The position numbers were made by a program, and so were the translations under genes. A stretch of DNA of 46,918 nt from a virus. The stretch covers positions 1 through 46,918 of IMG/VR virus record IMGVR_UViG_3300007351_000366, one strand, 5' to 3'. The stretch's first letter is position 1, and every line of letters starts with the position of its first letter. Of this stretch, positions 26,087 through 46,907 are shown piece after piece. The notes under the pieces are model-generated. The model was given only the letters and a program-made list of their open reading frames with translations, searched no databases and had not been told where the DNA came from.

Positions 26087-26992
26087 TTAAGCAAGCCCAA
26101 TGTCTTGTGAAGTTCTAGCTTTTCTGAATGGCGGCCATTTCCCAAAAAGCACTTTTGTTAACAGTCTGCTTCTGTGAATCAAAAAAATAATAATTACGGA
26201 TATGACAGTACTTGTTAAAAAAGTGCTCAAAACATCAATATAACCAGTGCCAAAGCCCATACTCATAAACATTCCGCTAATTAAATATGTTTCCAGGCTT
26301 ATACGACCTAAATATCTGACAAAGCCAAAATTGAAAAATCTATTTACAAAAAAATAACTTAAAGCCATACCTGTTAAAGCAAGAGGTAGTTTTAAGTATG
26401 GTATTTGCGCCAATAACAGAAAGGGAAACCCGATAGCTGAAATGTATAAAACGGGCTTTTGATAGTTAGTTAGCCTATCCTTATACTTTGCTATTAAGTA
26501 ACCTATGATTAAAATTGGAGCATACCACTTGACCTGTCCGTAATAAGGAAACGGAACAAAATAAATCATAGCAAAAAACATTATGTACGACCAATTACCA
26601 ATAACTTTTTCAAAATACACCAGAACCGCCAGAACAGCTAAACATGCAAATAAAATCGGAAGAAACCAGGGCGCATCAGGATAAAGAACAGCATTAGTAT
26701 AAAAGGTTTTTATACTACCAATGTCTCGATGCCCAATTAACGGATACAGAGTGTGCCATACAAAATAAGTTGGGATTAGGCTGATAAACCTTTTATAAAC
26801 CAAGTTATTCATTTTATTAAACGAAACGTATCCGCTTAACAAAAAGAAAAGCGGCATATGAAAAGAGTATATTGCTTGAAATAATAGGTTTTCGTTGTAG
26901 GATGTGGGAAATGCCTTTGCAACACTATGCCCTAGCACTACAAGTAAAATAGCATATCCTTTTAAAGCATCAATTTTTTTATCACGGATCAT
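26087..26992 (-). CDS. Acyltransferase-3 family membrane protein (moron)
   Basis: A 301-residue multi-pass membrane enzyme with the family opening KKIDALKGYAILLVVLGHS, in which the conserved His is the catalytic one, and a second mark FHMPLFFLLSGYVSF. It has about ten hydrophobic spans. Family members transfer acetyl groups onto sugars of the cell surface, in O-antigen or wall teichoic acid. It lies on the opposite strand inside the virion block and is clearly more AT-rich than its neighbours, so it was probably acquired separately. Its own ribosome site GGGAGG is present. Lysogenic conversion or exclusion of other phages by receptor change is the likely role. Confidence 0.87.
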   Translation of the reverse strand: MIRDKKIDALKGYAILLVVLGHSVAKAFPTSYNENLLFQAIYSFHMPLFFLLSGYVSFNKMNNLVYKRFISLIPTYFVWHTLYPLIGHRDIGSIKTFYTNAVLYPDAPWFLPILFACLAVLAVLVYFEKVIGNWSYIMFFAMIYFVPFPYYGQVKWYAPILIIGYLIAKYKDRLTNYQKPVLYISAIGFPFLLLAQIPYLKLPLALTGMALSYFFVNRFFNFGFVRYLGRISLETYLISGMFMSMGFGTGYIDVLSTFLTSTVISVIIIFLIHRSRLLTKVLFGKWPPFRKARTSQDIGLA

Positions 26993-35726: not shown

Positions 35727-38700
35727 ATGCCCTGGATCAAGGATGAGAACGGAAGAGATATATTGGTACCGGAAGGCGGGTTTGATTATTTTCGGAAAAA
35801 CAAAAGCGTTCCCACTCAAGGGAGCGCTTTTGGTGTTTCCGGTGGTATCCCGGCTAATGTTCCCGGTGAAGAAACGAGCGGGTGGACTCAGGATGTGAAC
35901 GGCAACCATGTTTTGATTCCGGCTGGAGGCTTTGATTATTTTAAAAAGAAGGCAACAATACCTAACCTTCCACCAGAGACATTGCCTGGGGGGGCAGTTC
36001 CGGCCCCTGCCACGTCCGAACCAGTTTTTAATACTTCTATGCCCTCCGGACCGGTTAATATTGATGTTAGGACCGGCAAACCAACAAGATCAGTAATGCC
36101 GACATCACAGCCCGGAACACAGGAGCCGTTTATCATAAACAATCCCAGTTTGCCGGGGAATGCTGTCCCAACCATAGAGGATGTTGTTCATGCCCAAGAT
36201 CCTTTACTTGTATCACCGGGAAGTCAAACAGCAGCGCAAAGGGCTATGCAGAGTGCAACTGTTCCGGGCCTTATTCAGAAACCTCTGGAAGCATTGGGCG
36301 AAACTGATACCTTTAAGTCACTTATTGCCGGGATGTATTCCAATATTCCTATGTATTATGGTGGTGGTATGGAGTGGCTTGGTGATAAGTTTGATGTTGA
36401 CACTCTGAGTGGAAAAGGGAAAAATATTCGGGAATTCGGTGAAACCACTGCCGAACGATATGCCGACCCAGACTGGGCGCAGCCCATTGAATTTGAGAGT
36501 TGGGGACAAGCTCTTACGGATCCCCGTTTTTATACCCGAAATGTTATGAGAAATGTTCCCTTGATGGCATCTCTCCTTATTCCAACGGTTTTAGGTGCTG
36601 AGGCTGGTGGGCTTGTAGCCGGGGCAGCCGGATGGAGCAAGTTGGGCAGCTTAGGGAAATGGGGAACAAAATTACTGAGGGTTATTGGCGGTCTTTCCGG
36701 GGGCGTACCATTAGAATCTGCATTAGAAGCCGGGGGAGTTTATACTGAAGCAAAAAACAGAGGTTTGTCAGAAGAAGAAGCAATGCAGGCCGCCGATGAT
36801 GCTTTTACAAAGAACGCTGCTTTGTTGTCAGTGACAAACTTGCCGGAATTAGCTGCCATGTTTAGTCCGGCTCCTAAATGGCTGGTGAAAATGCTTGGGA
36901 CAGCAGCGGATTCTAAATTGGGAAGAGCAGCAGTAGGAGCCGGTAGGATTGGTATGGCCGGAGTGTCCGAAGGGCTGGAGGAAGGCGCACAGGAAGTAAT
37001 CCAGCGCAGTTCTTTGGGTGATGAAATCAGTTTTGACCCGGCTATGCAGGAATCTATTGCACAGGGGTTGGTTCTTGGTGGTGGCCCTGGTATCATTGGT
37101 GCCCTTCAACATGAAATGCAGACCCGGGCCTATGGCAAAGCATCTAAGGAAGCCAAAAAGTTTCTGGAAACTGCCGTTGATGAAAAAGTTAAGGCCGGTG
37201 TGTCCGTAGAGGAAGCGGTAAAACAGGTGTTTGATGAGTTTGCCGGAACCGAGGAAGGCGACAAGGTTGTCGGCGAATCAATGCAGGAAGTACTTCAGGA
37301 TGTTGCGGACGTGGAAAGGGTAGCGGCTGAGAAGCAGAAGAGTAGGCAGGAGGGACAACAACCGGAGGGACAGCAGGCACAGCCTGTAATACAGCCGGTG
37401 CAGAAGCCTGTTCAGCAGACACAGGAGCCTGTTCAGCCGGTGCAGCAACCAGAAATACAACCGATTCAGGAGCCTGTGTCCGTACAGGCAGAACCAGAAC
37501 CGGTTACAGGGTCGACTGTTAAACCTGTGGAAACTGGTCAGAAACCTATTGAAAAACCTGTCAAGGAGCCCGTAAAATATGGTAAAAGAGGTAATAGAGT
37601 TTTAAAGAAATTAGCACAAGTGTCTGGTTTGGATTTATCTGACCCGGATAATTCAGACGTGGCAGATTTGATAGATTTCTTTGAAACATATTACAGTGCA
37701 GGGCTGGAAGGTAGAAATATCCCCGAAATAACTATGCACCCGCAGGACGCTAATGAAGCATATAATGCGGGCAGACTAGACAATGAAGGTCAGCCTGAAG
37801 AACCCACAAAACAACCTGCGAAATATGGCAGAATCGGGAACAATGTCTTCAAGAAATGGGCTAACAATGAGTATGTTATGGCAGATTTGGACAAGTCGGA
37901 TGATCCATATGTGCAGGCATATAGACAGTTCTTTGAAAAATGGTATCAGGCGGGAAAAGAAGGTATTAGAACAATTGATGTACCTTTTGACCAGGAAATA
38001 GATTCACAGTTTCCGCATTTCTTGACCCAACTGTTTTATCAGGCAGGCAGCGCAGATGTAAGGGCTCAACCTTCAAAGGAAGTTTCTGTACAACCTGAAA
38101 TCCAAAAGGCAAAAGAACTCGAAACAAAGTCAGTCGAGCAGGTTAAGACGGTTGATGAAGCACAAAAACCTAAAAAATCTACCAACATTGGATACCATGC
38201 CGGAGACTTAGGAAAAGCTGAACACCTTGCAAGGTTCCACGGTTCAAACAGGGGAACCGGGCATTTTGGTACCGGAACCTATTTTGTGGGAAGCAAAGAA
38301 GCAGTAAATTTGGGTAATTATAAAGATAGGCCCGTTCAAGAAATTAACTTTGATGGGTATAACCTATATAGACCAGATGGTCATAATCAAGCAAACAATC
38401 TGCATGAAGGCTTGAAATTCATTAATGACTCCACTAATTTTTATAAACCGGGAATGACGTTAGAACAGCTTCTTGAAGCTCAGGCCAAAGGAAAGGATGA
38501 CTACCGAGCTGAGGCGTTTCAAAACAGGTTTAAAGACCTATATTCTTTGTTTTACAGAGATTTTGGCATTGAAGAATTTAGTCCTTATCGAAAAGGTCAA
38601 GAGTTTTTTGAAAAAGCCCTTATCCCGATATTGGATGAAATCTACAACGAAGTTAGCGGTTCGGGATTGAAATGGGCTTACGAAAAAGCTGATTCTGCTT

Positions 38701-41700
38701 CTACACGTTTTATGAAAAAACTCGGTTATGAAGGGGTGGATGTCAGGGGAATAAAAGGATTTGATAATACTCAGTATGGAAGCGTTATTTATGACCTCCG
38801 AGTTGAACAAGAAGAAGTTGCCAAAATTGGGGAAACTGAGGTACAATCAAAGCAAGAGGAGCCTGTTGTTGAGGAATCAAAGCCAGAAGAACGGGCCACT
38901 CCAAGCAGAAAAGTGGCAATTGCCGTTAAGGATATACTGGTACAAGGCCAAAAATTTACTTCCGCTGAGCTATTTAAGATTGCCGACCAGTTCTTTGAGG
39001 GTACTCAGGCGGAGAAGAAATACACTTCCAAAGATGCTTATGATGCTTTGGAATTGGGAGTTAACCTCTACCTGTTGGAACATAAAAAGAGTGTTGGCCC
39101 GATGGTTAGTGCTGAGCAGGCTAAACGTATCTTAGAATCTATCAGGCAGGAAATATTGGAGGTAATCCCCACTCAAACCAAGAGGACAGAAGAACAGGAT
39201 AGATTACAACAGTTTTCCACTCCTCCCAACATAGCTTATATTGCCGCATGGGTAGCAAATATTTCATCGAGGGATGTTGCGTTGGAACCCAGCGCAGGGA
39301 TTGGTGGTTTAGCTGTATTTGCAAAATCCGCCGGCGCAAAAGAGGTTATTGTTAATGAGTTTTCTCCCAGACGTGCTGAAGTATTAAAGGAAATGGGGTT
39401 TGATCGGGTATTCACTGAGAATGCTGAACAGTTAAATAATGTGTTACCAAAAGACATCAAGCCTACCGTTATTATAATGAATCCGCCGTTTTCATCAACC
39501 GCCAGGATAAGAAGTAAAAACGATACTAAAAACGCTATTCTACACATAGAGCAGGCTTTAAAGAAGCTGGCTCCCGGAGGCAGGTTGGTGGCGATTGTTG
39601 GCCAGGGGATGTCTGACAGTGCCGCAAACTTCAAAGGTTGGTGGAACAAACTACGGGAAACTTACAACATTCGTGCTAATATAGTCATAAATGGGAAGAA
39701 TTATACCAAATATGGCACTAACTTTGGTGTTCAGTTGGTAGTAATTGATAAAACAGGACCGCTGCCAAAAGGAGTTAATAGCACAGTTGTTAAGAGCGTA
39801 GACTTGTTGGAAGATGCACTTCCTTTATTGGAGGGGATTAAGAATGACCGGATTACATCAGAGAATAGACAGACTCAACAGGCAACCGATAAACCTGTTG
39901 GCGAAAAACCTGCTGAACAAGGCAGGCCAGAAACCGGACCCGAGCCTGCTGTACCTGTATCAACTGATCAACTGGGGACTACAGACCGGGAAGGTGGAGC
40001 CGAACAACCCGGAGAACAGGAACGAATACCACGATCTGAGACAACAAGCGGAAAAACTCCTGTATCACATGAACCCGGAACAGGCAATGAACCTTCTGAC
40101 CAAGGAAGGCCCGGATCAGGGGAACCGGCAGGAAGCGTGGGTCAATCCCAAGAGGCTGGCCAGGAAGACACCGCTGGAAGCAGCGGAGTACCTGACGGAA
40201 AGACTGATGTACGCACTCCAGCAGAAGCAGCCAAAGAACCCGGAAGCGGAACAGTAAAAACTACAAAGACCGAGATTGAAGTTAAATCAGAGAAAACAAA
40301 AACTACTAACCAGGAATTAACGGATGCAGTCTTTACTGATTATGCGCCGCAAAAACTGAAAATCACCGGGGCTAAGCAACATCCCGGCGCACTTGCCCAA
40401 AGCGCAGCTATGGCTGCAGTGGAACCGCCAACACCAACTTATACCCCTAACTTGCCAAAAGAGATTATAAGTGAAGGAAAACTGTCATTAGCTCAGCTTG
40501 AATCTGTTGTCTATGCCGGACAATCACACCAGCAAACCCTTCCAGACGGAACAAGGAAGGGTTTCTTTATTGGGGATGGTACCGGTGTTGGTAAAGGCCG
40601 GGAGATTTCTGGTATAATTTTGGACAATATTCGCCAGGGACGCAAAAAAGCTGTCTGGATAAGTAAGAACGGTATTCTGTTTGAAGATGCGCAAAGAGAC
40701 TTCGGGGACATTGGTGGAGACAAAAACACTGTTTTTGAATTTAACAAAATAAAAATGGGCACCCCGGTCAAGCAAAAGGACGGGGTTTTGTTTACAACTT
40801 ATGATACTCTTGGTCAAGGCCTAAGCTCTTCTAACACCGGTGAGCTGATTGTTAAGGAAGGTAAATCTGCAAGGATTGATCAGGTAATAAATTGGCTGGG
40901 TAAGGATTTCGATGGGGTTATTGTTTTTGACGAAGCTCATCAAATGCAGAACAGTATAACCCAAAAAGGAAAACGTGGGGCAAAAAAACCTTCCACCAGG
41001 GCACTTGCTGGCATAGAACTACAAAAACGCTTGCCTAATGCCAGGATAGTTTATGTTTCAGCAACCGGGGCCACTGAGGTTTCAAATTTAGCTTATGCTG
41101 ACCGGTTGGGTCTTTGGGGGGAAGGCACTCCGTTTGCCAACAAGCTTGATTTCATTGACAAGGTTCAGGCCGGTGGGTTAGCGGCAATGGAGCTGGTTGC
41201 CCGCGACATGAAGGCCATGGGCGCTTATATTGCCCGTAACCTGAGCTATGACGGAGTAACCTATGGTACGCTTGAACATAATCTTACCCCTGAACAGACG
41301 GAAATATATGATGAAATGGCTAAGGCGTGGCAGATTGTCCTGCAAAACGTTAATAAGGCACTGGAAGAAACCGGTCAGGGCAAAGACGGTCACTCCAAGG
41401 GCAGGGCCATAGGTCAGTTTTGGGGGGCCCAGCAGAGATTTTTTAATCAGGTACTAACTTCCGTCCAGATGCCTTCAGTGGTTGAACAGGTAAAAAAAGA
41501 TCTGGCAAACGGAAACGCTGTTGTAATGCAATTGGTTAACACTAATGAGGCAGCTCAGAACAGGGCCATTTCCAAGATGAATGAAGAAGACAGTTTGGAA
41601 GATTTGGATCTTACACCCCGGGATATGTTGATGCAGTATCTTGATAAGAGTTTTCCCATTCAACAATATGAAGAGTATGAAGACGATAATGGCAACATCC

Positions 41701-44700
41701 GGTCAAGACCCGTTGTTGACAGTCACGGTAATCCGGTTATAAACCAGGAAGCAATGGAAATGAAGGAAGATCTTCTGTCAAAACTGGGTGCGTTAAAAGT
41801 ACCGGAAGGCCCGTTGGAAATTATTTTGAATGAGTTTGGAACTGAAATGGTTGCCGAAGTTACCGGACGTACCCGCAGGGTTGTTCGTGAGTCAGATGAT
41901 GGCGGGCGCACGAAGGCAAAGCTTGAATCAAGAACACCGAAACATGCTTCAGCTGATGCTCAGGCTTTTCTTGATGATAAGAAAAAGATACTGGTTTTCT
42001 CTGATGCCGGTGGAACCGGACGCAGTTACCATGCCTCTCTTAAAGAAAAAAACCAGCGGCGCAGGATTCATTATCTGATTCAAGCCGGTTGGAGAGCAGA
42101 TAACGCTGTCCAGGGTTTCGGAAGAACTCACCGGACTAATCAGGCGAATGCCCCTCATTATATATTGGTTACCACTAACCTAAAGGGGCAAAAACGGTTT
42201 ATTTCATCTATTGCCAGAAGGTTGGATCAGTTAGGAGCGCTGACTAAAGGGCAGAGGCAAACCGGCAGTCAAGGGCTTTTTAGCGCTAAGGATAACCTTG
42301 AAAGTGATCTGGCCAGGGATGCCTTGCAGCAGTTTTATGAGGATTTAGCCAGAGAACTGATCGAAGGGGTTACCGCCAAAGAACTGTTATCCAAAATGGG
42401 CCTGTCAAAAATGCTCGATGAAAACAGAAACGTTAGTAACGAAAACCCTGACTTAAGGGATATTACCAAATTCCTTAACCGTATTCTGGCTCTTGAGTCC
42501 ACACTGCAAAATAAGATTTTTGAAGAATTTACCGAAAGACTTGACGCTAAGGTTGAAAAAGCCATTGCCGATGGAACCCTTGATGTCGGTTTAGAGAATT
42601 ACCGGGCCGACAAAGTTGTGGTATCTGAAGAGAAGTCTGTATTTGTTGATGAATCGTCCGGAGCTGAAACAAAATATTTTGCACTCGAAGCTTATCATAA
42701 AAACAAAAAGGTTTCTTTTGAAAATGCTTCACGGTTGCCAAAGTTAAAGGGTTTTTACAGGAACACTAAAAGTGACCGGGTTTATGCAGTTAAAAGATAT
42801 GGTCACAGGACACTGACCAGTGGTAGCGTGGTTGAGATCTATCAGGTTCAGGGTCAGGCGCAGTCAAGCAGCCACAATATAACCAGGCCCGATTTTGAGA
42901 AAGGGAACTGGGAAGAAATCCCTGAGTCAGAAGCCGAAAAAGCATGGAATGAAGCACTGGAAAAGGTTCCGGAATTTCGTATTGACAAGGTTAACCTGAT
43001 AAGCGGCGCGCTGCTTCCTATTTGGGATAGACTGCCGACAGGTCATGTTAGGGTTATCCGTGTTAAAACCGAGGATGGCCGGATGCTGTTGGGCCGCATT
43101 GTGCCCGAAAAAGCAATCGACCTGACATTAAAGAAGCTCGGTGCCAACAGGGTAAAACAAGAGGTATCTCCGGCAGAAATAGCTGACAAGATATTAAACG
43201 AGAATTATACCGTCTACTTGTCAAACGAGTGGAAACTAGTAAAACGCAGGGTTTCAGGGGAAAATCGCATTGAGATAATTGGCCGTGATCTTTATACGCA
43301 TATGGGCCAGTTAAGGAATGAAGGGGTTTTCACTGAGCGCATAAACTGGGACACAAGGTTTTTTATCCCGACAGGGGAAGAAGCCGCGCGGGTGATTGAA
43401 AAAGTAACCAAGTACAGGCCCGTGGTGGATATGGTCTCTCCGGACGCAAGCGGAGAGTTTTCATTAGCTGCCAAGAAAAAAAAGTCCAAAAAGAAAAAAT
43501 CTAAAAAACCTGCTCCTACCATTGACAAAGAACTTACTGATCCTAACGAATTAATCACCAGGGCCGAGAACATTTCTCCCAAGGCAGCCCGCAAGATGGG
43601 TGAAAAACTGGCCCAGCTGCTCAACACAGTCCTCCGTTCCGGCAGGCACACCAGGGGGACGGAAGGTTCGTTCAGCAAAAAATCCAAGACCGGCAAAATC
43701 AGAAAACCTAAAACTGAAAACTGGCGGGTTATGGGCCATGAGTTAGCTCATGGTATTTCTTTTATCCTTCTTGATGAAGCCAAGTTCAAGCCCAGGAAGT
43801 CTGAGATGTGGGATATCGCCGAAGAGATGTATCCCGGCCAGATTCCGGAAGGCCAGAAGACCCAGGAGGGCCTTGCCGAATACCTGATGTTGTGGTTCTC
43901 CGACAACAAGACGGCCCGCGAAATGGCCCCGGTTACATCTGAACTGTTTGATGAGTTCCTGGACAATAATCCTCAGATTGGAACACAGTTTGATGAAATC
44001 CTGGCTATTGCTGAACTTGACCTTGAAGGAGATATTCTGGCTCAAATGGCCAATTTAATAGCAAAACCGGGCGAACGGGTTAAAGTTAATATTGGGGACG
44101 AATACGCTGTTCCATGGTTTAAGAAACTGCAGTTCCAGTTAGCAGACTTCACTATACCCCTAAAAGACCTGTACCGGGCTGCTGTTGAACAGGGATTTGA
44201 GGGACTTGACCCGGCAAAACTGGCAGCGGTTTCAGGTTCGGCCAGAGAGAAGGCTACTAACCTGTTCTCGGGTTCGGCCAGGGATGAAGCCGGCAGGTTC
44301 CTTCTTCCCGGAAAACGTTCTCTCCGGGAAATAGTCGAAGATGCAGCGCAAATCCCTCACGGCGTTCAATTGATGGATTGGATATACCATGCCATGAGAT
44401 ACCAGGAACGGTACAAGGTGATGGAAGAATCGAAAGGAACGAAGCAATTCGAACTACCCAAAACAAAGGCTTATTTTGACGAAGTGGTTGAGCAGGCCCG
44501 CGACAGGTATCCTGAAATGGTTAAACTTGTTGAAGAATATGCCGAAATTCTTAGCGAGATTAACCTGCGCCTGCTGGTCCGGGGTGAAGTAATAAGCGAA
44601 GAAGATGCCGATTATATCCGGGCCGGTTCAAAGTATTATTTGCCCTTGTACCATGTCGGTGAACAGGAGTATCACGGCTCAGGTAACAACAGGCGGGCTT

Positions 44701-46907
44701 CCGGTGAAGGTGTGCGCCGGTTTAAGGGACATGAAGGGCAGACAATGAATTTCATTGAGGCATCCATCATCAGGCTCAACGATACAGTCCTGGCGGTAGA
44801 GATTGAAAGGCTTATGCAGTCCATAGAAGGGGCTCTCAGGCAGCCTAACATGGGTCTGTTCGGTGACTTTATTCAGGCGCCCATTAAATCTGTATCTGTA
44901 TCCGCGGAGGACATAGTAAAACACCTTAACGGAGAAATAAGCATTGAGGACGAGGAACGGGTTATTAGAATGTTTATACCCGGCGGATTGCGTGACATAA
45001 GTCAAAGGGAAACCATTTTAATGGCGCGTCACGGCGGGCGGCATGTTTATATGAGGGTGGCGCCGGATATTTACCGGGCAGCCCTTTCCATGAAGCCTAT
45101 AACCGTTGACATTGTTGCCAAGACCCTTGCCTATTTAACACAGATAGGCCGGTTCGGGGCCCTGGCCAACATCAGATATATAACCAACGCTGTCATGCGT
45201 GACATTATTGTTTCCAAGATACAGTCTAAGGCCGGTATGGGTGAACGGTCCCTGATAGCTGATTTCATCAAAGGTGTTGCTACTGCCGTTGGCATGAACC
45301 CCGAGGTTATGGACATGTATATTCAGTCCGGTGGATATGGTTCTTCGCCACAGGAAGTCATTAACGGGGTCCTGCGGGCATCGGTAAGCGATGGGCTGAT
45401 GGCAACTCCGGTACCGGGATGGAAACGGACAGCAACCGGGGCCCTGGTCAGGGTGGTTACTTCACCACTGGAAGCACTCCGGATTCTTGAAGAAATGCCC
45501 AGGCTGGCTGAATTTGAAGCAGTATTAAAAAGGGATCTTGAACCATTAGGGGTGTCTTATGAAGATTTTATGGCCGGTGACGTTCCGGATGAACTGGCCC
45601 CGGACGTGGAAAAAGCTCTGCTGGAAGCTGCATATGCTTCGCGGGAGATCCTTGTCAACTTCGGTCTTCACGGTATCCATGAAGGGTTTAGGAAATATGC
45701 CCGGACGGTTCAGTTTATGCAGGGCAGTATCCAGGGTGTTTACAGGTTCGGCCGGCAAATAAAAGATAAGCTTTATACAACATTAATGAGGATGGCTATT
45801 TACATGGCTCCGTTGACTATTTTGGCCTGGATGCTGTCCGCTGACGATGATAAGTATAAGGATATGCCCTCCGAATCCCGTGACCGGTATTGGTGGTTCC
45901 CTGTACCGGGGGCTAAGGACTTCCGGATTGCCCTGGCAAAACCGTATGAATATGCGTTACCGGCTAATATGCTGGAACGGTTCCTTGATTGGGCCTCTAA
46001 TAATGACCCAAACAGCAGGAAACTGTTATCTGATTTTAGAACAGCTGTTAAAACATCATTTGGCATCCCCATGACTTCTATGCTGGTAGATACGATAATC
46101 AGCCTTTATTCGGGCAAAAACTCTTTTGGGAGCCCGATTGAACCGGAACGGGAGCAGAATTTGTTGCCGCAGGAAAGGTATGGCACCGGCACATCAAAGT
46201 TTGCCATCAATATGGCGAAGGTTGTTGGTGCAGTTACCGAGAAGGGACCAAGCCCCAGGGTTATTGACTATTTCATGAAAAACTCCTTCGGCGGTATTGG
46301 TAAAACAGTGACCAACATCCTCAGTAACCCGCTGAACCCGCTTAAATGGTTGAAGGGTGATGACAGGCCGGGGGTGGAATACTGGCCGGTTATAGGTTCC
46401 CTTATTTATGGTTCCGGTGAGGGCGGCAGCCGGATTGTGGATAGGTTCTACGAAGACAAGACAAGGGCTGAACAGCTTTATAAATCATCGGGACTTTGGC
46501 GGAAACAATGGGAGGATCAGGCCAGGGCGAAAGGGCTGTCACCGGAAGAAACCGCGAATTTTGTTAACGAGAACCTCCGCAAAAGGCTCAAAGAAGAAGA
46601 TGTCCGGTTGATATTGTCTATCCCGGTCCGCAACATGTTTGCCAAAGAAATGTCTGACATGCGGGCTGCCCAAAGAGATATGGCAAAACGCACCGACATT
46701 TCGCCGGAGCAGAAAAAGATATTCAACCTGAGAATGAGCTATCTGCAAAAGCTGGCAGCCGGGTATCTCTACCAGAGGCCGATACCGGAGGCTCCTCCTG
46801 AAGCGGAATTAACTGACGTACAGATTCAGGACATGCTGAAATATTATGATTACAAGGTGCAAAGGGCAATAACCAATGCCCTTAAAACCAAGGGTGGACC
46901 AGTGTAA
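35727..46907 (+). CDS. Giant polyvalent virion protein: ART-like, N6-adenine methyltransferase, Sno-type helicase, HEXXH and LPD38 domains
   Basis: A 3726-residue protein, probably packed in the virion and ejected with the DNA to counter host defence, like P1 DarB. Order: two short repeats with GGFDYF (1-26, 52-76); glycine/alanine hydrophobic segments (about 272-336); Q/P linker (532-616); an 81-residue tandem duplication (617-690, 698-780); an ADP-ribosyltransferase-like domain (820-1028, with YHAG, GTGHFGTGTYF and YGSVIYDL); a methyltransferase (1150-1390) with LEPSAGIGG near 1187 and NPPF at 1252; a low-complexity linker (1375-1528); a Strawberry-notch helicase with GDGTGVGK at 1616-1623, DEAH at 1735 and QGFGRTHR near 2129; a lysine tract (about 2583); HELAH at 2671-2675; an LPD38-type end (2960-3455). 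AGAGGGGG precedes the ATG. Confidence 0.9.
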   Translation: MPWIKDENGRDILVPEGGFDYFRKNKSVPTQGSAFGVSGGIPANVPGEETSGWTQDVNGNHVLIPAGGFDYFKKKATIPNLPPETLPGGAVPAPATSEPVFNTSMPSGPVNIDVRTGKPTRSVMPTSQPGTQEPFIINNPSLPGNAVPTIEDVVHAQDPLLVSPGSQTAAQRAMQSATVPGLIQKPLEALGETDTFKSLIAGMYSNIPMYYGGGMEWLGDKFDVDTLSGKGKNIREFGETTAERYADPDWAQPIEFESWGQALTDPRFYTRNVMRNVPLMASLLIPTVLGAEAGGLVAGAAGWSKLGSLGKWGTKLLRVIGGLSGGVPLESALEAGGVYTEAKNRGLSEEEAMQAADDAFTKNAALLSVTNLPELAAMFSPAPKWLVKMLGTAADSKLGRAAVGAGRIGMAGVSEGLEEGAQEVIQRSSLGDEISFDPAMQESIAQGLVLGGGPGIIGALQHEMQTRAYGKASKEAKKFLETAVDEKVKAGVSVEEAVKQVFDEFAGTEEGDKVVGESMQEVLQDVADVERVAAEKQKSRQEGQQPEGQQAQPVIQPVQKPVQQTQEPVQPVQQPEIQPIQEPVSVQAEPEPVTGSTVKPVETGQKPIEKPVKEPVKYGKRGNRVLKKLAQVSGLDLSDPDNSDVADLIDFFETYYSAGLEGRNIPEITMHPQDANEAYNAGRLDNEGQPEEPTKQPAKYGRIGNNVFKKWANNEYVMADLDKSDDPYVQAYRQFFEKWYQAGKEGIRTIDVPFDQEIDSQFPHFLTQLFYQAGSADVRAQPSKEVSVQPEIQKAKELETKSVEQVKTVDEAQKPKKSTNIGYHAGDLGKAEHLARFHGSNRGTGHFGTGTYFVGSKEAVNLGNYKDRPVQEINFDGYNLYRPDGHNQANNLHEGLKFINDSTNFYKPGMTLEQLLEAQAKGKDDYRAEAFQNRFKDLYSLFYRDFGIEEFSPYRKGQEFFEKALIPILDEIYNEVSGSGLKWAYEKADSASTRFMKKLGYEGVDVRGIKGFDNTQYGSVIYDLRVEQEEVAKIGETEVQSKQEEPVVEESKPEERATPSRKVAIAVKDILVQGQKFTSAELFKIADQFFEGTQAEKKYTSKDAYDALELGVNLYLLEHKKSVGPMVSAEQAKRILESIRQEILEVIPTQTKRTEEQDRLQQFSTPPNIAYIAAWVANISSRDVALEPSAGIGGLAVFAKSAGAKEVIVNEFSPRRAEVLKEMGFDRVFTENAEQLNNVLPKDIKPTVIIMNPPFSSTARIRSKNDTKNAILHIEQALKKLAPGGRLVAIVGQGMSDSAANFKGWWNKLRETYNIRANIVINGKNYTKYGTNFGVQLVVIDKTGPLPKGVNSTVVKSVDLLEDALPLLEGIKNDRITSENRQTQQATDKPVGEKPAEQGRPETGPEPAVPVSTDQLGTTDREGGAEQPGEQERIPRSETTSGKTPVSHEPGTGNEPSDQGRPGSGEPAGSVGQSQEAGQEDTAGSSGVPDGKTDVRTPAEAAKEPGSGTVKTTKTEIEVKSEKTKTTNQELTDAVFTDYAPQKLKITGAKQHPGALAQSAAMAAVEPPTPTYTPNLPKEIISEGKLSLAQLESVVYAGQSHQQTLPDGTRKGFFIGDGTGVGKGREISGIILDNIRQGRKKAVWISKNGILFEDAQRDFGDIGGDKNTVFEFNKIKMGTPVKQKDGVLFTTYDTLGQGLSSSNTGELIVKEGKSARIDQVINWLGKDFDGVIVFDEAHQMQNSITQKGKRGAKKPSTRALAGIELQKRLPNARIVYVSATGATEVSNLAYADRLGLWGEGTPFANKLDFIDKVQAGGLAAMELVARDMKAMGAYIARNLSYDGVTYGTLEHNLTPEQTEIYDEMAKAWQIVLQNVNKALEETGQGKDGHSKGRAIGQFWGAQQRFFNQVLTSVQMPSVVEQVKKDLANGNAVVMQLVNTNEAAQNRAISKMNEEDSLEDLDLTPRDMLMQYLDKSFPIQQYEEYEDDNGNIRSRPVVDSHGNPVINQEAMEMKEDLLSKLGALKVPEGPLEIILNEFGTEMVAEVTGRTRRVVRESDDGGRTKAKLESRTPKHASADAQAFLDDKKKILVFSDAGGTGRSYHASLKEKNQRRRIHYLIQAGWRADNAVQGFGRTHRTNQANAPHYILVTTNLKGQKRFISSIARRLDQLGALTKGQRQTGSQGLFSAKDNLESDLARDALQQFYEDLARELIEGVTAKELLSKMGLSKMLDENRNVSNENPDLRDITKFLNRILALESTLQNKIFEEFTERLDAKVEKAIADGTLDVGLENYRADKVVVSEEKSVFVDESSGAETKYFALEAYHKNKKVSFENASRLPKLKGFYRNTKSDRVYAVKRYGHRTLTSGSVVEIYQVQGQAQSSSHNITRPDFEKGNWEEIPESEAEKAWNEALEKVPEFRIDKVNLISGALLPIWDRLPTGHVRVIRVKTEDGRMLLGRIVPEKAIDLTLKKLGANRVKQEVSPAEIADKILNENYTVYLSNEWKLVKRRVSGENRIEIIGRDLYTHMGQLRNEGVFTERINWDTRFFIPTGEEAARVIEKVTKYRPVVDMVSPDASGEFSLAAKKKKSKKKKSKKPAPTIDKELTDPNELITRAENISPKAARKMGEKLAQLLNTVLRSGRHTRGTEGSFSKKSKTGKIRKPKTENWRVMGHELAHGISFILLDEAKFKPRKSEMWDIAEEMYPGQIPEGQKTQEGLAEYLMLWFSDNKTAREMAPVTSELFDEFLDNNPQIGTQFDEILAIAELDLEGDILAQMANLIAKPGERVKVNIGDEYAVPWFKKLQFQLADFTIPLKDLYRAAVEQGFEGLDPAKLAAVSGSAREKATNLFSGSARDEAGRFLLPGKRSLREIVEDAAQIPHGVQLMDWIYHAMRYQERYKVMEESKGTKQFELPKTKAYFDEVVEQARDRYPEMVKLVEEYAEILSEINLRLLVRGEVISEEDADYIRAGSKYYLPLYHVGEQEYHGSGNNRRASGEGVRRFKGHEGQTMNFIEASIIRLNDTVLAVEIERLMQSIEGALRQPNMGLFGDFIQAPIKSVSVSAEDIVKHLNGEISIEDEERVIRMFIPGGLRDISQRETILMARHGGRHVYMRVAPDIYRAALSMKPITVDIVAKTLAYLTQIGRFGALANIRYITNAVMRDIIVSKIQSKAGMGERSLIADFIKGVATAVGMNPEVMDMYIQSGGYGSSPQEVINGVLRASVSDGLMATPVPGWKRTATGALVRVVTSPLEALRILEEMPRLAEFEAVLKRDLEPLGVSYEDFMAGDVPDELAPDVEKALLEAAYASREILVNFGLHGIHEGFRKYARTVQFMQGSIQGVYRFGRQIKDKLYTTLMRMAIYMAPLTILAWMLSADDDKYKDMPSESRDRYWWFPVPGAKDFRIALAKPYEYALPANMLERFLDWASNNDPNSRKLLSDFRTAVKTSFGIPMTSMLVDTIISLYSGKNSFGSPIEPEREQNLLPQERYGTGTSKFAINMAKVVGAVTEKGPSPRVIDYFMKNSFGGIGKTVTNILSNPLNPLKWLKGDDRPGVEYWPVIGSLIYGSGEGGSRIVDRFYEDKTRAEQLYKSSGLWRKQWEDQARAKGLSPEETANFVNENLRKRLKEEDVRLILSIPVRNMFAKEMSDMRAAQRDMAKRTDISPEQKKIFNLRMSYLQKLAAGYLYQRPIPEAPPEAELTDVQIQDMLKYYDYKVQRAITNALKTKGGPV
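39844..40257 (+). CDS. Candidate overlapping gene nested in the giant gene, 137 aa
   Basis: In the +1 frame relative to the giant gene, ATG 39844 has GGAGGGG (39830-39836) at ideal distance and an uninterrupted frame to TAA 40255-40257. The product looks like a genuine helical protein: MTGLHQRIDRLNRQPINLLA, then PDPSLLYLYQLINWGLQTGK, then DLRQQAEKLLYHMNPEQAMN, then PLEAAEYLTERLMYALQQ. In exactly this span the giant protein reads as disordered Gly/Glu/Pro/Thr/Gln-rich linker, so the linker frame seems to yield to the other frame. An unused frame in a low-complexity region is the alternative. No homologue is recognised. Confidence 0.5.
   Translation: MTGLHQRIDRLNRQPINLLAKNLLNKAGQKPDPSLLYLYQLINWGLQTGKVEPNNPENRNEYHDLRQQAEKLLYHMNPEQAMNLLTKEGPDQGNRQEAWVNPKRLARKTPLEAAEYLTERLMYALQQKQPKNPEAEQ

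Follow-up and report, generated by a model that had tools for sequence, protein, structure and literature searches.

An open reading frame nested in the +1 frame of a giant polyvalent protein gene in all probability encodes a real small protein missed by annotation. The reading preferred here, with a probability of roughly 0.62, is that of a separately translated gene overprinting the linker between the methyltransferase and the helicase of the giant, the product being most likely a small partner of the latter. The window, i.e., the whole stretch of 46,918 bases that was analysed, is the virus record IMGVR_UViG_3300007351_000366, with the terminase small subunit, portal, major head protein and adaptor-like genes, and the giant ORF stands at its right end (Table 1). 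An Acyltransferase_3 gene at 26087-26992 (-), possibly a surface-modifying accessory gene, lies on the strand opposite to the virion gene cluster around it. The original prediction of a 137-codon frame with its own Shine-Dalgarno (SD) sequence inside the methyltransferase-helicase linker was confirmed, while the SD spacing of 9 bases claimed with it holds from the GGAGG core (9 nt) and not from the whole GGAGGGG (7 nt). The nested frame is also open upstream to a further ATG, with which the protein would count 147 aa. The linker of the giant is of low hydrophobicity, and the host stretch over the nested ORF is indeed of low complexity, as had been proposed, with 46% of G/P/S/T and 8% of hydrophobic residues vs. 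28% in the nested frame.

Table 1. Features of the giant ORF and of the nested genes (positions in the window unless an accession is given)
Feature	Position	Strand	Remarks
Giant polyvalent ORF containing the nested gene	35727..46907	+	3726 aa; at the right end of the window
DNA methyltransferase domain of the giant (NPPF motif)	39195..39617	+	PHROG phrog_6263, residues 1157-1297
Upstream in-frame ATG extension of the nested frame	39814..39843	+	probably not the start; relatives keep 39844
Host motif LLEGIKNDR	39825..39851	+	encodes the SD and the start of the nested gene
Shine-Dalgarno GGAGGGG of the nested gene	39830..39836	+	spelled by the host L-E-G codons
Nested (putatively overprinted) CDS	39844..40257	+	137 aa and stop; +1 frame relative to the giant ORF; ATG at 39844
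Helicase N-terminal half of the giant	40377..41315	+	Pfam AAA_34
Helicase_C_4 of the giant	41814..42596	+	C-terminal domain of Strawberry notch homologue
LPD38 of the giant	45846..46325	+	large polyvalent protein associated domain
Lessievirus nested ORF (L237)	NC_012743.2, about 51295-51618		107 codons in four parsed phages; SD AAGGAGG upstream of ATG

The related loci (167, or 168 with the window) were collected by scans for the methyltransferase stretch and the helicase, so that the set is selected by similarity to these two regions, 80 being kept of 131, and of 184, confirmed; at least two contigs, L071 and L088, were fetched twice, and both are within the 13 exact duplicates of the nested protein. 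By tblastn, collinear +1-frame homologues of the nested protein were met at the same place of the related loci (best E 1e-35, 51% identity), and the gene was found in the same frame between the methyltransferase and the Strawberry-notch helicase in 132 of the 168 loci, window included, with 119 distinct protein sequences falling into 90 clusters at 60% identity, whose representatives are counted below. The other loci comprise two with a shifted start (L083 and L085), two probable carriers (L107, masked and with a broken frame, and the uncertain L132), three cut off before the linker (L022, L077 and L094) and 29 without the nested gene, namely the giants L074 and L078 and 27 shorter methyltransferase-helicase ORFs of 852-1606 aa, both ends of which are within the fetched stretch and which are nearly all from Alphaproteobacteria, with one cyanobacterial. 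The 13 exact duplicates, L083/L085, L107 and L132 were left out of the statistics.

Not a single stop was found among the 11,304 nested-frame codons of the 90 representatives, a figure to be read beside the 29 loci lacking the gene, which are reported separately because the carriers were counted by the open frame and the start. For comparison, the host flanks read in the same frame contain 2564 stops in 69,106 codons (3.7%), and the overlap read in the +2 frame contains 916 in 11,304. Multiplied over the loci, the probabilities of an open frame with the host residues kept come to ~1e-74, and zero stops were also observed at GC of 0.36-0.45; one TAA flagged for L198 in the search table is sited just upstream of the start. 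In the sequence of the window alone, the nested frame is unremarkable and not beyond chance, since synonymous recoding of the host residues leaves it open with P = 0.20, and in 22% of 300 synonymous shufflings of the giant the longest +1 run reached or exceeded the 151 codons observed; judged from the relatives, the frame is overwhelmingly beyond chance.

The start codon stands at the conserved place in all 90 representatives (ATG in 88 and GTG in two), with an SD core upstream in 81 of the 90 vs. 401 of 3015 control ATGs of the same frame. The starts were mostly picked by an SD rule, with 13 set by hand and three added later, so that the count of 81 is biased upwards, and the test of codon choice is biased less. 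The host consensus in the carrier loci is LLEG(I/V)RN(D/E)R, where Glu is encoded by GAG in 48 of 57 cases, while these genes would lead one to expect 26.6, and the Leu before it has a G-ending codon in 52 of 83 vs. 38.0 expected, both choices together spelling GGAG. The full motif of this type was not met in any of the 29 loci that lack the nested gene, and the remnant VRDSR is left in L074 and L078, the pattern that would be expected after gene loss. The conservation of the start site, which had been proposed as a check, is thus found among the relatives at the level of sequence, for the start and the SD alike.

Substitutions in the two frames point to selection acting mainly on the nested one. 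Across 28 disjoint pairs, the host codon positions 1/2/3 differ at 0.341/0.219/0.188 in the overlap (3376 codons) and at 0.136/0.091/0.358 in the flanks, i.e., the host third position varies least and the first most in the overlap, with the reverse in the flanks, and the identity of the nested protein exceeds that of the host stretch in 27 of the 28 pairs, with one tie. Because these pairs had been aligned by the nested protein, with a possible alignment bias, the test was repeated on the host-protein alignment of the window giant and four relatives in 60-codon segments, where position 3 fell below position 1 only at 39867-40046 and 40047-40226 among the scored segments (the first three and two late segments of the giant, with too few aligned codons, were unscored). 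In the N-terminal part of this giant, the stretches of weak conservation showed no reversal, and in several poorly aligned segments position 3 exceeded position 1 by only 0.05-0.10, a weak contrast, likewise with no reversal. Hence, within the overlap the main frame no longer has its freedom at the third position, the opposite of the pattern named in the original prediction as speaking against a second gene, and together with the open frame in the homologues this argues for the suggested overprinting and separate translation. The host linker may be partly low-complexity because selection acts mainly on the nested frame, the pattern being observed and this cause proposed.

One iterated profile recognises 80 of the 90 representatives, and the 10 missed were retained in the counts of the stops and of the starts with SD; 62 of the 80 profile members make up the A2 set. 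AlphaFold2, run on 62 sequences, returned a helical model with pLDDT of 88.2 and pTM of 0.84, in agreement with the translation being of the folded-protein type, as had been predicted from its composition. The family diverges fast (20% mean column identity), with pI below 6 in 87% of the 90 representatives, and the window's own protein is basic, with pI of 9.2. The scanning of 62 members against Pfam, PHROGs and NCBIfam gave no accepted match, the weak hits being each to a single member; the PDB sequence search yielded nothing acceptable (best E 0.18), and Foldseek against PDB and BFVD gave no match at E<=0.001, with the best Z of 2.9 by VIA, such an absence being no proof of a new fold. With the window's nested protein as the query, tblastn gave no match in the phage collection, and neither did a single-sequence pattern scan of IMG/VR, which is too insensitive, because the homologues do exist in IMG/VR.

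The nested gene occurs in phage contigs, in bacterial genomes of Bacillota, Pseudomonadota, Thermodesulfobacteriota and others, and in plasmids, the taxonomic groups of the carriers being taken from the record titles, many of which are of metagenome bins. Three plasmid giants with the gene were found, all in Gammaproteobacteria, those of Methylotuvimicrobium alcaliphilum 20Z and Thioflavicoccus mobilis on plasmids typed as conjugative and that of Methylomonas sp. LL1 on a plasmid typed as non-mobilizable. Among the cultured methanotrophs, Methylotuvimicrobium buryatense 5G (L103) is a carrier as well, next to the M. alcaliphilum 20Z plasmid (L169). The three plasmid records hold no gene annotated for the nested frame, in a plasmid gene table that is incomplete, and in the Thioflavicoccus plasmid the first half of the giant is also unannotated; in the phage records examined, the giant alone is annotated and the nested gene is absent from the annotation.

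A family-profile search of 919 genomes, drawn from the orders and a class around the known carriers, resulted in 22 hits, 16 of them known loci and six new (four of the six nested); 20 of the 22 are embedded in a host ORF bearing the motifs of both the methyltransferase and the helicase, the other two being a copy within a decayed host and a stand-alone one. In the decayed giant (L192), the host frame is broken on both sides of the linker and the nested frame is still open. The stand-alone relative (L181:1489-1863, minus strand) is chromosomal, in a bacterial genome, and has its own start; it precedes a DUF4126 gene and follows a frame that we take to be aldolase-like, with no methyltransferase or helicase motif in its surroundings, and its protein, used as a query against 199 genomes of its order, found L181 only.

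By the helicase tree, the nested gene has long been part of the giants, which have probably lost it at least once, because L074 is placed among the giants carrying the gene and the shorter proteins apart, as one clade without it. The tree (FastTree, unrooted) has 108 rows, 92 with the gene and 16 without it, the latter being 16 of the 29 gene-lacking loci, and the gene label needs two changes on it; 45 of its 105 inner branches are poorly supported, and, being unrooted, it does not distinguish gain from loss at the deep split. The contigs L074 and L078 are near-identical (99.985% over 6822 bases), with a shorter linker in their giants, and a search run without a positive control found no copy of the nested gene elsewhere in these two records.

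Other explanations of the nested frame were weighed against this evidence. That it is a by-product of a biased, low-complexity linker, with no protein made, would agree with the value of about 0.2 for the window alone and with the +1 frame being often open by chance at high GC, for example in the alphaproteobacterial loci without the gene; however, the lack of stops also at GC of 0.36-0.45, with the very small joint probability given above, the amino-acid homology, the conservation of the start and SD and the reversed codon-position pattern leave this explanation a negligible probability. Programmed +1 frameshifting from the giant, by which the methyltransferase would be fused to a small domain instead of a separate protein being made, is very improbable. 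An SD-like sequence upstream is a known feature of bacterial frameshift sites and is present before the nested frame, but a nested-frame stop lies at most 12 codons 5' of the conserved start in 60 of the 90 representatives, and the start itself is always an ATG or GTG.

It had also been supposed that an older layout is recorded here, the nested gene having once been separate between the methyltransferase and helicase genes, with the giant arisen by fusion through it. The nested frame being protein-like and the host frame a linker is as would be expected were the linker frame younger, but a search of limited scope found no unfused locus with the small gene between, in the shorter proteins that lack the nested gene the methyltransferase and the helicase are already joined in one ORF, and the sole stand-alone copy, L181, is not located between such genes; the older layout thus gained no support and is considered improbable. 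Unlikely too, while deserving more weight, is the explanation that the nested gene is real and its product an independent effector, e.g., of anti-defence function, which shares the transcript and is not the partner of the giant. The fast divergence, the usually acidic character, the stand-alone copy outside any giant and the view, expressed in the available text of PMC5512222, that giants of such kind counter host defence are in its favour, but a free effector would be expected alone more often, and 20 of the 22 profile hits are nested in the methyltransferase-helicase frame.

In the preferred reading of an overprinted gene for a small partner, the ribosomes would start the nested gene at the internal SD and ATG written in the host codons, as their conservation suggests, and the product would be a small, usually acidic, helical protein, judging from the sequences and the predicted structure, of a family absent from the libraries searched. 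As it would be made from the same mRNA, it would appear beside the nascent giant chains. Its action on the methyltransferase-helicase is proposed because the nested gene goes with the giants in phages and plasmids, being absent from the 27 shorter methyltransferase-helicase ORFs and present in the phage and the three plasmid giants; a capsid-only role is disfavoured because it leaves the plasmid giants unexplained. The small partner may act on the methyltransferase-helicase module in the producing cell until packaging or transfer, and the odds are about even that it holds, folds or keeps inactive this module. The giants of L074 and L078 without the gene, the basic protein of the window and the 10 of 90 representatives outside the profile are points against this explanation.

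Small proteins from within larger genes are a familiar arrangement: Rz1 is encoded out of frame in Rz, ComS is a fully embedded out-of-frame gene in srfA, and the Cas11 small subunits are small helical partners produced from an internal start in the large-subunit gene, in frame, whereas the nested product described here is out of frame. The nested gene is like Rz1, which belongs to the embedded class in the available passages of PMC9144972, in encoding a small protein with its own start wholly within a larger coding sequence, and it is different from both Rz1 and ComS in that it sits inside the gene of a giant multi-domain protein, overlaps an interdomain linker and is conserved across the phages and plasmids of distant bacteria. 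The host giant itself, with its methyltransferase, Strawberry-notch helicase and LPD38, belongs by domain content with the polyvalent proteins of the methylase-helicase dyad described in the accessible portion of Iyer et al. 2017 (PMC5512222), a source in whose main text, as available, the word "overlap" occurs 0 times and no overlapping gene is mentioned.

A further likeness is to the Dar system of P1, where, according to the available part of PMC9024508, DarB is a giant virion methyltransferase-helicase accompanied by the small 17 kDa Ulx, a head protein encoded beside darB and listed as an aid to the localization of DarB; the accessible text of PMC12810830 puts Ulx, DarB and DdrB together for the EcoB/EcoK branch. 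However, ulx is a separate downstream gene, and the nested gene lies inside the frame of the giant; the comparison of the nested family with Ulx, taken as a single sequence, revealed no sequence similarity (hhalign probability 0.1). In JC1, a DarB-like giant was found in the virion, and its authors, in the part of PMC9144972 available, describe it as having no homologue of Ulx or of the other partners beside it; a nested protein could fill the place of Ulx in a JC1-type giant, which is put forward here as a proposal.

Overlapping genes are of a known kind, while a deeply conserved nested family in the linkers of giant polyvalent proteins is apparently new, with no report of a nested gene in polyvalent or DarB-like proteins found in the literature searched, the scope of which left subscription papers and preprints mostly outside. 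PMC13299392 was considered as a prior report and set aside, since the matching phrases in its available text refer to other things. Long overlapping genes outside viruses are disallowed by the standard annotation programs, as stated in the accessible part of PMC8665328, and a conserved protein family of phage contigs, bacterial genomes and plasmids is invisible in the records examined. The nested gene would be a compact natural system in which to study how translation initiates inside a very long coding sequence; it also supplies a reason why a "disordered" linker has the sequence it has, and it points to candidate small subunits of the giant anti-restriction proteins, for which the partners otherwise met have been described for P1 only.

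Small partner genes overprinted in the interdomain linkers might even be a general, repeatedly evolved design of the phage and plasmid giant methyltransferase-helicases, with at least three nested families without detected similarity (the first one, the Bacteroides-type and that of Lessievirus), the low-complexity linkers being a by-product of the selection on these hidden genes and the hidden proteins the missing small subunits of such delivery systems, i.e., the counterparts of Ulx; this generalization is offered tentatively, as slightly less probable than its denial. The giant of the Bacteroides phage BS-TP4 (PQ571277.1), the only relative of the methyltransferase-helicase stretch in the phage collection at E<=1e-10 (22% identity), contains a different +1 ORF in the same linker (the L207-L236 clade). 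This nested gene was found in 28 of 30 loci (the giant and 29 IMG/VR relatives), L232 being cut and L235 being without it; the product of probabilities for the 24 distinct sequences is ~1e-26, and in eight disjoint pairs the positions 1/2/3 differ at 0.341/0.227/0.160 in the overlap vs. 0.129/0.095/0.458 in the flanks. The conserved start has mostly no SD, as seen by eye, and the predicted fold (10 sequences; pLDDT 78.5, pTM 0.73) consists mostly of helices, along with a few strand residues. Homology between the Bacteroides-type and the first nested family was not detectable (hhalign probability 0.2 and 1.2), and the two Bacteroides-type subgroups may be related to each other (probability 67).

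In the giant of the window, a further +1-frame ORF of 124 codons, starting with TTG, is located at 38761-39135 (+), with no overlap signal by the codon-position scan. The darB gene of P1 has +1 runs of 177 and 128 codons, which by eye look unlike a protein and have no good start, and neither was accepted as a nested gene. In the DarB-like giants of the Lessievirus phages of Burkholderia (BcepIL02, BcepMigl, DC1, CSP3 and JC1), an unannotated +1 ORF lies in a linker that precedes the methyltransferase (Table 1); these phages have diverged too little for a decision by the codon test, and E of 0.033 with the profile of the first family, in a small search, was not counted as a match. The copy of this ORF in JC1 was identified by tblastn, with 75.7% similarity.
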